DNA from: Bradyrhizobium sp. CCBAU 53340
GTDB lineage: Bacteria > Pseudomonadota > Alphaproteobacteria > Rhizobiales > Xanthobacteraceae
DNA length: 64,000 bases
NCBI RefSeq assembly: GCF_015291645.1
Contig: NZ_CP030055.1
Location: 2,790,001 to 2,854,000, forward strand
Direction of reading: 5' to 3'
Part shown: positions 17,656 to 20,487 of the stretch, piece after piece
How positions within the stretch are numbered: position 1 is the first letter of the stretch
Layout: each line of letters starts with the position of its first letter
Made by a program: the position numbers and the translations under genes
The notes under the pieces: model-generated
What the model was told of the DNA's origin: nothing
The model's database searches: none
What the model saw: only the letters and a program-made list of their open reading frames with translations

Positions 17656-17684
17656 TTGCAACCCGAACGTGCTTCGTCTATTAG
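17656..17684 (+). promoter_or_regulatory. Candidate sigma-70 promoter for the tRNA-like RNA
   Basis: TTGCAA, a 17-base spacer, then TATTAG. The spacing is ideal and both hexamers match the consensus at 4 of 6 positions. No coding start follows; transcription beginning near 17691 would run through the two tRNA-like folds to the terminator at 17963-17997. I looked for and did not find a sigma-54 promoter here. Confidence 0.5.
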
Positions 17685-17773
17685 CGCGCTCCTTCGCTAG
17701 GCCATGTGCCCGGGCTCGTTGAGATCCCGGCTGGCGCGGATCGCTCTGCGATGTCGTGTTCCGCCGAATGAAG

Positions 17774-17851
17774 GCAAGAGCAGGATGTAGCTCATGGAGA
17801 GCGTCGGGGTGAAACCCGAAGGCATCGGTTCGATTCCGGTCTCTTGTCCCA
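17774..17851 (+). ncRNA. tRNA-like RNA element 1 (non-canonical)
   Basis: A tRNA-like fold with departures from a real tRNA. Acceptor stem: GCAAGAG (17774-17780) with CTCTTGT (17841-17847), 7 bp including one G-U, followed by C and an encoded CCA (17849-17851). T-arm: ATCGG-TTCGATT-CCGGT, standard. Anticodon arm: TCGGG / CCCGA with a six-base loop GTGAAA instead of seven. D-arm: GCTC-ATGGA-GAGC, with an unusually small loop, and nine rather than two bases between acceptor and D-stem. It would be a poor tRNA. It abuts element 2 and lies upstream of a slipin gene. The fold is seen; the assignment to an RNA-repair-type tRNA-like molecule is inference from known SPFH associations. Confidence 0.65.
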
Positions 17852-17923
17852 CAAAGGATAGCTCAGTTGGGTAGAGCAGATGACGTTAATCATCGGGTCG
17901 CGGGTTCGAATCCCGCTCCATCG
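17852..17923 (+). ncRNA. tRNA-like RNA element 2 (non-canonical)
   Basis: Immediately follows element 1. D-arm GCTC-AGTTGGGTA-GAGC and T-arm GCGGG-TTCGAAT-CCCGC are textbook, and the variable loop GGGTC is standard. The anticodon stem GATGA / TCATC closes a six-base loop CGTTAA, one base short, with no U33 in the normal position. The acceptor stem (17852-17858 with 17917-17923) pairs at only 5 of 7 positions and no CCA is encoded. The D and T arms are well preserved while decoding and acceptor parts are not, so I doubt it is a working tRNA. It shares a short anticodon loop with element 1. Confidence 0.65.
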
Positions 17924-17962
17924 CTCCGGGTCAGCCTGAAAAACTGACACCTCTGACGAGGA

Positions 17963-17997
17963 CCGGACGCGCGCTTCAGTCGCAGTCCGGCCGTTTT
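17963..17997 (+). terminator. Terminator of the tRNA-like RNA unit
   Basis: CCGGAC (17963-17968) pairs with GTCCGG (17985-17990), followed by CCGTTTT. A smaller GTCAG/CTGAC hairpin precedes it. This closes the noncoding unit before the slipin gene. The 260 bases from here to 18256 hold no recognised gene. Confidence 0.6.
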
Positions 17998-18256
17998 GCC
18001 GCAAGGCTTTCCGTCCGAACATCGACACTGTGAGACCGGCTTTGCGCCGCGGGTAGATACCGCTTGCGCCGATGCCGGGTGGCTACGCACGGCCGCGCGA
18101 CAGATGTCGCGCGATCGCGCGCGTGCGCCCGTCATCGCGCAAGCTAAAGCCCCGGCCCGCCGATGTCATGGGAAGCGTCGTCCGCGTCCTCACGTTCCTT
18201 TGCAAACGAAACCTGTTGTCCGGCATCCAGCCGGGCGCAAACGAAGGAGGCGTGCC

Positions 18257-19407
18257 ATGAGCTGGCACTTGCTGACGTTGAACGTGACGGTGAAGGATGG
18301 CGAGCGCGCGTTGCTGACGCGCAATGGGCAGCTCGTGCGCGTGCTCGCGCCCGGTCGTCATCGCCTGTTCGATCCCCTGCACGAGCTGAAGGCCGAGGTG
18401 CTCGATGTGGTCCGCACCGAATTCTCCGCGGAGCGCTACGCGGTGCTGAAGGCAGCGCGGCCTGATCTCGCCGCCGAGCTGTTCGAGGCGGTCGAGACCC
18501 GGGCGGACGAGATCGCGATCGTCAGCCTCGACGGCCGGCCCGTGCATCTGATGACGCCCTGGCAGGTGCGTGTCTACTGGAAGGTCGCAACCCGCATCGA
18601 TGTCGAGCGCATCGATGTGTCCAGCGATCCCAAGATCGACGCGCGGCACCTGAGCATGATCGAGCGCAACCGTTCGGCCGTGTCGTCCGAGACGGTGGTC
18701 GAGAACCACGAGGCGGGTCTGCTCTATGTCGAGGGCCGGCTCGTCGAGCGGCTCGCGCCCGGCCGGCACGCCTTCTGGACCGTCGGCCGCAAGATCGAGG
18801 TGAAGCGCCTCGACCTGCGGCCCCAGGCGGTCGAGATTACCGCGCAGGAGATGCTGACCAGGGATCGCATCGCCCTGCGGGTGACGCTGACGGCGTTCCG
18901 CAAGGTGGTCGATCCCGAGCGCACGGTTGCCACCGTGCCCGACGTGGATGCGTGGCTGTATCGTTTGGTGCAGTTCGCGATCCGCGAGGCGGTCGCGGGC
19001 CGGACGCTGGACGAGGTGCTGTCTGCGAAGGCGGCGCTGGATGCGGAGCTGCGCGACTATGTGCGTGCACGCGTTGCAGAGGCCGGTGTCGAGGTGACCG
19101 AGCTCGGCGTCAAGGACGTGATCCTGCCCGGCGAAATCCGGGAGCTGGTGACAAGGTGGTGGAGGCGGAGCGGGTCGCCAAGGCGAACCTGATCCGCCGC
19201 CAGGAGGAGACGGCGGCAACGCGCTCGCTCCTGAACACTGCCCGCCTGATGGAGGAGAACCCCTTGCTGCTCCGGCTCAAGGAGCTGGAGTCGCTGGAGC
19301 GGCTGGTCGAGAAGGTCGGCCGCATCGATCTCCACGCCGGAAACGGCGAGGGCCTCGATGCTCTCCTGACCCGGCTCGTGCGCCTGAAGGCGCCCGAGAG
19401 CGCGTGA
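18257..19407 (+). pseudogene. Slipin (SPFH/Band 7 family), interrupted by a -1 frameshift
   Basis: ATG at 18257 follows a strong GAAGGAGG site. The N-terminal part (residues 1-120) holds a partial copy of the SPFH strand region (ERALLTRNGQLVRVLAPGRHRLFDP) that is repeated near residue 150 (EAGLLYVEGRLVERLAPGRH), followed by the Band 7 body (about 170-290). Near 19149-19151 one base is missing compared with the expected ELVNKVVEAERV reading. The frame stops at 19192 after about 311 residues, while the next frame continues with KVVEAERVAKANLIRRQEE and a coiled C-terminus to 19407. Restoring one base gives about 384 residues. This could be a real mutation or a sequencing error. Slipins are membrane scaffolds; in some RNA-repair loci an SPFH protein is paired with a tRNA-like RNA such as the one just upstream. 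Confidence 0.85.
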
Positions 19408-19415
19408 GAACGAGG

Positions 19416-19439
19416 AAGGGCCGCCCACGGGCGGCCCTT
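19416..19439. terminator. Terminator after slipin gene
   Basis: AAGGGCCGCC / GGCGGCCCTT perfect 10-bp stem with a CACG loop, nine bases after the slipin stop. The T-run is short. Confidence 0.65.
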
Positions 19440-19577
19440 CAACTATCCGTCAAATGACGGCTCGCGCTGAACGCCCGTTTGTACTCGCGCGACCAAGATC
19501 ATCAAGTGCATCGGGATTGCGCGCGCCGTTGCGTGCGCTAAACTTGGCATACAACCTATCGGGCAGGCGTTCAGGCG

Positions 19578-20346: not shown

Positions 20347-20487
20347 GTCATTCCGGGGCGGCGCGCAGCGGCGAGCCCGGAATCCATAACCACAGGCGGG
20401 TGCGATGGCCTATCCGGCAATAGCCAACTGACAATTGTGGTTATGGATTCCGGGCTCGCGCCCCAAGAGGGCGCGCCCCGGAATGAC
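20347..20487. repeat. Palindromic repeat, family A, double copy
   Basis: Two head-to-head copies: GTCATTCCGGGG ... CCCGGAATCCATAACCAC and GTGGTTATGGATTCCGGG ... CCCCGGAATGAC. The whole 140-base stretch can fold as one long imperfect hairpin. It sits between lepB and the convergent groEL terminator. Confidence 0.8.

Follow-up and report, generated by a model that had tools for sequence, protein, structure and literature searches.

What are two abutting tRNA-like folds, each with a six-base anticodon loop, doing at a single locus of Bradyrhizobium sp. CCBAU 53340? A preliminary description of the 64,000-nt stretch that we analyzed (hereafter, the window) proposed that a promoter, the two folds and a terminator form a self-contained noncoding unit selected for its tRNA shape. 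We re-examined that proposal by comparing the locus with its relatives, and we find that the two folds belong to a much longer conserved RNA that lies directly upstream of a gene for an SPFH-domain protein (slipin).

The two tRNA-like elements and their loops

As previously proposed, the window contains two abutting tRNA-like elements. Both were called by ARAGORN, and both exceeded the 29-bit cut-off of the Rfam tRNA model in the covariance search suggested earlier, element 1 with 36.3 bits and element 2 with 45.1 bits. Their parts are as follows, in window coordinates.

17780..17851, + strand: tRNA-like element 1 (ARAGORN, Rfam tRNA)
17780-17786/17841-17847, + strand: element 1 acceptor stem
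17790-17793/17799-17802, + strand: element 1 D-stem
17804-17808/17815-17819, + strand: element 1 anticodon-like stem, loop GTGAAA at 17809-17814
17824-17840, + strand: element 1 T-arm, with CCCA further on at 17848-17851
17852..17924, + strand: tRNA-like element 2 (ARAGORN, Rfam tRNA), with a weak, mismatched acceptor and without CCA
17861-17864/17874-17877, + strand: element 2 D-stem
17879-17883/17890-17894, + strand: element 2 anticodon-like stem, loop CGTTAA at 17884-17889
17900-17916, + strand: element 2 T-arm

Both elements share with canonical tRNAs a cloverleaf with D, anticodon and T stems. The combination of a seven-base anticodon loop with a conserved anticodon identity is absent from the window and its relatives, and element 2 lacks a regular 7-bp acceptor and a 3′ CCA, as the preliminary description had recognized. 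A CCA precedes element 2 in 46 of the 99 readable sequences. ARAGORN assigned two-base anticodons, and thus six-base loops, to both elements in this strain, and their Rfam scores are the bottom two among the 48 tRNA matches listed in this 8.7-Mb genome. Normal tRNA-Phe(GAA) and tRNA-Asn(GTT) genes are present among the 30 other tRNA loci that we read. ARAGORN called no tmRNA in the window, and we rejected a tmRNA identity on this ground. The six-base loops, the weak acceptor and missing CCA of element 2 and the lowest tRNA scores of the genome would all fit decayed ordinary tRNA genes (pseudo-tRNAs), an explanation against which the selection analyses below speak strongly.

Judged from the aligned relatives, the loop drifts, and six bases is the state that it has in the window. 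A strict pattern for element 2 parsed 88 of 92 Bradyrhizobium loci, all nine close loci and 10 of 26 distant loci. Among the 88 parsed Bradyrhizobium copies, the loop has seven bases in 77, six in six and eight in five, so the assertion that both loops have six bases holds for this strain (GTGAAA and CGTTAA) and fails for most of its relatives. A37 occurs in all 77 seven-base loops and U33 in 59, while positions 34-36 display 20 different triplets. In distant loci, the anticodon stem of element 2 can be wholly different yet paired (GATGA/TCATC, TCAGA/TCTGA, ACGGA/TCCGT and GCCAT/ATGGC). Across the 95 readable copies from Bradyrhizobium and close groups, the loop of element 1 ranges from 3 to 8 bases, sizes that are approximate as the hairpin was picked by script, and by hand count it is a GNRA tetraloop in 18 of these copies; two sequences lack the element 2 anchor. 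In two Rhodoplanes (L231 and L232) and a MAG (L225), a short stem-loop with ACA or CACA at its end takes the place of element 1, and element 2 is retained; the first element is therefore dispensable. The perfect GCAAGAG acceptor of element 1 and the seven extra bases attributed to it were dropped, since these bases are mostly gaps or different in aligned relatives; the acceptor pairing common to close relatives joins GCAGGAY with CTCTTGY and has no insert.

Functional but unusual tRNAs, such as frameshift suppressors or tRNAs with six-base loops, are a highly unlikely explanation. Scores of 55-68 bits in some distant homologues and the usual seven-base, A37-containing loop of element 2 are in line with it, but 20 triplets occur within one genus, normal tRNA-Phe(GAA) and tRNA-Asn(GTT) are already in the genome, element 1 is a mere stem in some genomes, and element 2 has a mismatched acceptor without CCA. 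The preliminary description had named a homologue with seven-base loops and a normal tRNA score as evidence against itself. To the letter, this has come about, with seven-base loops in element 2 of most Bradyrhizobium homologues (77/88) and tRNA scores of 55-68 bits in several distant ones. The intent of that objection does not apply, since the anticodon is free to drift and decoding-tRNA behavior is seen in neither element.

A conserved RNA directly upstream of a slipin gene

Alignment of 94 Bradyrhizobium loci revealed that conservation covers about 600 nt (approximately 17656-18256), from the promoter to the ATG of the slipin gene at 18257. The unit therefore abuts the slipin gene and, contrary to what had been thought, is not self-contained. 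Its remaining features are listed below.

17656..17684, + strand: candidate sigma70-type promoter by consensus match (TTGCAA at 17656-17661, 17-nt spacer, TATTAG at 17679-17684)
17690..17779, + strand: 5′ structured domain with two covarying hairpins (helices 1 and 2, two-sided changes in 9 of 16 pairs)
17963..17997, + strand: conserved hairpin, probably internal (helix 9, 99.1% of cells paired)
18000..18256, + strand: 3′ conserved noncoding domain, ending at the slipin ribosome-binding site (GGAGG at 18246)
18257..19189, + strand: SPFH/slipin gene (Band_7, PF01145, E 2e-29; 311 aa open here)

The promoter was located where it had been placed, and it marks where conservation begins in the locus alignment; a loose version of its pattern (CTTG...T[TA][AT][TA]) is found in 87 of 101 aligned loci. 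By contrast, the terminator assigned to 17963-17997 did not hold up. The hairpin itself is conserved, but a TTTT run follows it in only 44 of 95 readable sequences, and conservation goes on for about 260 nt beyond it, up to the slipin start codon. Since the run is missing in 51 of the 95 sequences, the RNA probably continues into slipin, and the two are probably co-transcribed from the sigma70-type promoter. Covariation in the 5′ hairpins was found in a separate analysis as well. A motif for the 5′ domain is carried by 94 of the 101 loci from Bradyrhizobium and close groups and by 1 of 28 distant ones, so that homology of this domain is shown for close relatives. Near 18050, a single-base indel relative to most relatives argues against coding in the 3′ domain. 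At Rfam 15 cut-offs, nothing but tRNA models matched the RNA, other matches being weak and below cut-off.

Some further observations concern the surroundings. L160 and L234 carry an additional copy of a CAGCCT...GCTG-type hairpin 3′ of element 2. At 19303-19444 of the window, around the end of the slipin frame, a weak match to the Burkholderia sRNA ncS011 (E 0.005, below cut-off) may be a terminator hairpin and nothing more. An inverted repeat at 20373-20458, with arms CCGGAATCCATAA/TTATGGATTCCGG, lies between signal peptidase and groEL-type genes; a microRNA model matches it weakly on both strands, and it looks like a repeat element.

The slipins of relatives are mostly 383-387 aa long and include intact copies. 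The gene of this strain has a frameshift near codon 300, and the C-terminal helix goes on in another frame (18257-19407); the slipin of genome G053 is likewise in two pieces. A predicted model of the slipin matches stomatin, prohibitin and vault folds. In the model of one homologue (L177:10001-11149), the SPFH domain seems to be preceded by a beta unit repeated three times, and a vault-protein-like fold match extends across residues 8-333, a comparison in which residues outside 133-358 are barely tested by the matched rows. Modeled alone, the N-terminus gave a poor prediction (pLDDT 52.9), and the suggested beta repeats therefore depend on the full-length model. PADLOC returned nothing for two slipins.

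The RNA and the slipin occur together. A slipin is encoded in 92 of 265 Bradyrhizobium genomes, and the full RNA lies beside it at 92 loci, one per genome. A probe for the tRNA-like region matched 264 of the 265 genomes, mostly at true tRNAs, and the best 94 of these matches (E up to 3.5e-12) were taken. A slipin is present in the fetched flank of 92 of them, the exceptions being G055 and G230, the latter with a tRNA-sized match; the two loci concerned, L125 and L128, with a partial or tRNA-sized match, were left out. A probe from which the tRNA-like parts had been removed, which covered 257 of the 265 genomes, matched 88, namely 87 slipin genomes and G055; five slipin genomes are missing from its list, and all five have the RNA by the tRNA-like-region probe. 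In G055 (L125/L172), a Bradyrhizobium without slipin, two separated fragments of the RNA lie about 1.2 kb apart, as if both partners had been lost together.

The pair extends beyond the genus. In a sample of the family, 39 of 391 genomes, from 7 of 47 genera, encode slipin, and the RNA lies upstream of six of the seven slipins outside Bradyrhizobium (L160, L225, L231, L232, L234 and L235). The seventh genome, G356 (L165), has a slipin fragment (query residues 157-300) with no RNA detected upstream, possibly a relic of the pair. Dongia and two MAGs of other groups also carry the RNA upstream of slipin (L230, L233 and L241). In all, the RNA precedes slipin in two Rhodoplanes, Dongia and six further loci, MAGs among them. 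Identity to the RNA of the window is 67-75% in the eight loci compared by blastn.

Mobility was considered as well. tRNA-like genes are common attachment sites, and the distribution of the pair is patchy (92/265), features that would suit an integration (att) site or the relic of a mobile element. We regard this as very improbable given the constant slipin neighbor, the groEL-type gene found nearby in 15 of 19 loci compared, a phage collection with no slipin match and viral contigs none of which has the exact 21-base pattern of the conserved hairpin. Of 260 records in a search of plasmid DNA, none covered 80% of the query, and the ten plasmid matches listed are tRNA-sized (62-66 query bases).

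Selection on the RNA structure

We analyzed covariation in 39 diverse sequences with pairwise identities below 91%. In the alignment-derived fold, 98.6% of cells pair. Two-sided changes occur at 20 pairs, compared with a mean of 6.7 in shuffled alignments, and none of 500 shuffles reached the observed number. Six slid controls gave 2-6 pairs, all below 20, although the fold was derived from the tested alignment itself, which favors it in this control. Covariation supports the hairpins of the 5′ domain, both the D and the T stem of element 1, the element 2 anticodon stem (three pairs with two-sided changes) and the next hairpin. The D and T arms of element 2 are near-invariant in this set, and its D and T stems are thus little informative on covariation because they hardly vary. 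The search for compensatory changes in relatives, proposed in the preliminary description, therefore came out in its favor.

Divergence was measured in 31 disjoint close pairs with seven-base element 2 loops on both sides. The RNA core differs at 327 of 9297 sites (0.035 per site), as against 409 of 2584 fourfold sites in the slipin gene (0.158 per site). The element 2 triplet differs at 24 of 93 sites, and A37 at none of 31. The excess of the triplet over fourfold sites is 1.6- to 1.9-fold (p 0.01-0.04) in these disjoint pairs; in overlapping closest pairs, the apparent excess was severalfold, reaching about ninefold. Since the excess shrinks with disjoint pairs, diversifying selection on the triplet is only suggested. 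By these comparisons, constraint on the triplet is no stronger than on synonymous sites, and it is strong in the rest of the RNA. The loop of hairpin 2 in the 5′ domain and the junction between the elements also exceed the divergence rate of the core.

Taken comparatively, these data argue that selection maintains the RNA structure and that the two tRNA shapes are real. Decay is excluded because the stems covary so strongly. As a full account, pseudo-tRNAs are refuted, and we give them next to no probability: compensatory changes occur in both elements and the flanking domains, beyond all 500 shuffles; the core diverges far less than fourfold sites; and the RNA co-occurs with slipin. The earlier conclusion that a tRNA-shaped RNA is under selection is thus upheld by compensatory changes and by co-occurrence with slipin. 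The argument once given for it, that decoding features were lost from intact stems, is not, as six-base loops are not conserved and the insert and terminator were misread.

The same evidence bears on a cis-regulatory leader, in which cuts by RNase P/RNase Z or a stress RNase would switch slipin translation or mRNA stability. The RNA has the same orientation and lies directly 5′ of slipin wherever checked, no conserved terminator separates the two, conservation reaches the ribosome-binding site, and tandem tRNA-like folds are plausible processing sites. However, a processing signal would not call for an RNA of this length or for its near-invariant unpaired positions. Nor would it explain the retained anticodon-like stem, as tRNA processing is expected to need only the acceptor and T-arm. 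Moreover, positions 18200-18245, close to the slipin start, are less conserved than the RNA core (0.107 versus 0.035 per site). We consider such a leader possible but rather doubtful.

RNA-repair context and comparison with known systems

A sample of 337 genomes from the class added five with more distant slipins (32-37% identity). Among 398 Pseudomonadota genomes, 23 encode a slipin of the wider clade, including that of the window and one other Bradyrhizobium. This gave 27 further loci, 22 from the Pseudomonadota sample (own locus excluded) and five from the class sample. A tRNA-like element was called within about 0.6 kb upstream of slipin in 20 of the 27 (19 by ARAGORN, L244 by Rfam), and some of these distant homologues reach the tRNA scores of 55-68 bits given above. 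ARAGORN and Rfam made no such call at L246, L248, L253, L261, L264, L268 and L270; L248 is the other Bradyrhizobium, whose RNA is counted among the 92, and L253 lies at a contig edge with about 100 nt upstream. Upstream of slipin, 26 of the 29 loci examined for it carry a perfect T-arm (5 bp, TTC[AG]A loop; shuffled mean, 0.18), L246, L248, L261, L264, L268 and L270 among them. The loci without one are L253 and two enterobacterial loci, and the latter two have a readable 4-bp T-arm. No part of the RNA is thus more constant than the T-arm.

In all 14 non-alphaproteobacterial genomes found, RtcB is encoded within 4 kb of slipin (within about 1 kb in 13), and RtcR is encoded near it in eight (within about 2 kb in seven and at about 5 kb in one). 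Among 20 neighborhoods, RtcA-like genes occur at five loci and nucleotidyltransferase-like genes at four, names that were taken from sequence starts and an annotated Citrobacter neighbor. By contrast, neither RtcB nor RtcR was found near slipin in any of 13 alphaproteobacterial genomes, our own included. Three of these 13 have RtcB elsewhere, one of them RtcR also, and the genome of the window has neither. At one alphaproteobacterial locus (L290), a gene 3.5 kb away groups with the RtcR cluster by blastp, and an RtcR family match is absent. Sigma54-like sites were detected at 6 of 16 non-alphaproteobacterial loci and at none of 101 Bradyrhizobium and close loci. Because the alphaproteobacterial copies have no ligase or RtcR nearby (0/13), a repair role for them goes by association only.

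Citrobacter (L291, 5401-6010) and E. coli (L292, 5401-6010) records hold a much reduced RNA, with a sigma54-like site, a short 5′ stretch containing GTGTTCCG and a tRNA-like part that consists of the T-arm alone. The Citrobacter record has an annotated rtcR beside slipin; the E. coli record has slipin and a nucleotidyltransferase, with no rtcR annotated in the stretch.

Published work touches on this context at several points. In Anabaena, a slipin gene is derepressed along with rtcB in a trcR mutant (PMC10272220). PaFlo8 is located in the rtc locus of P. aeruginosa PA14, and its deletion left growth, pyocyanin, swimming and biofilm unaffected (PMC13086221). In a term search, the main texts of two Bradyrhizobium transcript papers (PMC4842269 and PMC5082802) contained no tRNA, slipin or stomatin terms.

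The reading that we favor, with modest confidence, is that the two folds are the tRNA-like part of an RNA of about 560 nt that acts as a partner of slipin or as a decoy in a tRNA-damage response, in an alphaproteobacterial form that dispenses with the ligase. The alphaproteobacterial pair would be the ligase-free form of an RNA and slipin that are accompanied by RtcB, and often RtcR, in other Pseudomonadota. The slipin, a presumed stomatin-like former of rings or cages, would bind the constant D/T elbow of element 2 and leave the anticodon-like loop exposed on the particle. Such a particle could serve the tRNA-damage response, most simply by baiting RNases that cut anticodons or by holding broken tRNA on a scaffold. 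We propose that the triplet drifts because the loop must resemble an anticodon loop (about seven bases, with A37) and need not decode, an idea of mimicry that is weakened by the presence of U33 in only 59 of 77 loops. In Bradyrhizobium (one genome tested, no RtcB), the pair would have to act without that ligase. Counting against this reading are the frameshifted slipin of this strain, the slipin fragment of G356 with no RNA detected and the unaltered phenotypes of the PaFlo8 deletion.

A more elaborate and improbable version is a vault-like ribonucleoprotein, a cage of soluble protein that carries the RNA of about 560 nt, its loops diversifying under anticodon nucleases, again ligase-free in Alphaproteobacteria. 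The protein of the predicted cage would resemble major vault protein in its repeated beta domains, its SPFH shoulder and its long helix, and the RNA of the particle would display one or two tRNA-like domains.

What looked like two aberrant pseudo-tRNAs proves to belong to a large, conserved RNA whose protein neighbor is constant. Because the alphaproteobacterial branch lacks the ligase, it serves as a natural experiment in which the role of the RNA and slipin is separable from that of RtcB. The pair occurs in soil and nodule bacteria amenable to deletion tests, and the combination of an invariant A37 and a freely varying triplet puts the idea of a tRNA-like decoy within direct reach of a test.

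Among known systems, the nearest are the SPFH/Band-7 modules with a cognate tRNA-like RNA that Burroughs and Aravind reportedly described in repair systems in 2016. As there, a tRNA-like RNA adjoins an SPFH gene: it lies immediately 5′ of a slipin of this clade, and homologous loci stand beside rtcB and often rtcR. By this analogy, the RNA appears to represent a ligase-free branch of the slipin-linked tRNA-like RNAs that belong to RNA-repair operons. RtcR/RtcB RNA-repair operons have RtcB in the locus and RtcR with a sigma54-type promoter, none of which the present locus has. Compared with those modules, our case differs in a genome without RtcB or RtcR, a sigma70-type promoter, long 5′ and 3′ domains and the behavior of the loops. 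No prior description of this RNA appeared in the titles and abstracts searched, a search that did not extend to the text of Burroughs and Aravind (2016).

OLE RNA is a structured RNA of about 600 nt that lies directly upstream of a partner-type gene and has membrane protein partners. The present RNA is similar in size and in its position 5′ of a gene for a partner-type protein; it has no Rfam match at cut-off other than tRNA, and its taxa and protein differ. The likeness to the eukaryotic vault, with its major vault protein and vault RNA, is one of predicted fold alone. The Y RNA YrlA, which accompanies Rsr/Ro60 (rsr-yrlBA-rtcBA operon), is likewise a noncoding tRNA mimic in an RNA-repair setting, and its tRNA-like domain has been suggested to inhibit an anticodon nuclease and, in the Salmonella operon, to act as a decoy (PMC7790460). 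Our RNA differs from YrlA in its SPFH neighbor and its two elements in cloverleaf order, and we rejected a Y RNA identity on the Rfam YrlA score (RF02553, 24.2 bits against a cut-off of 69). What is new here relative to these systems is the ligase-free form, the sigma70-type promoter indicated by consensus, the full anatomy of the RNA and the behavior of its loops.
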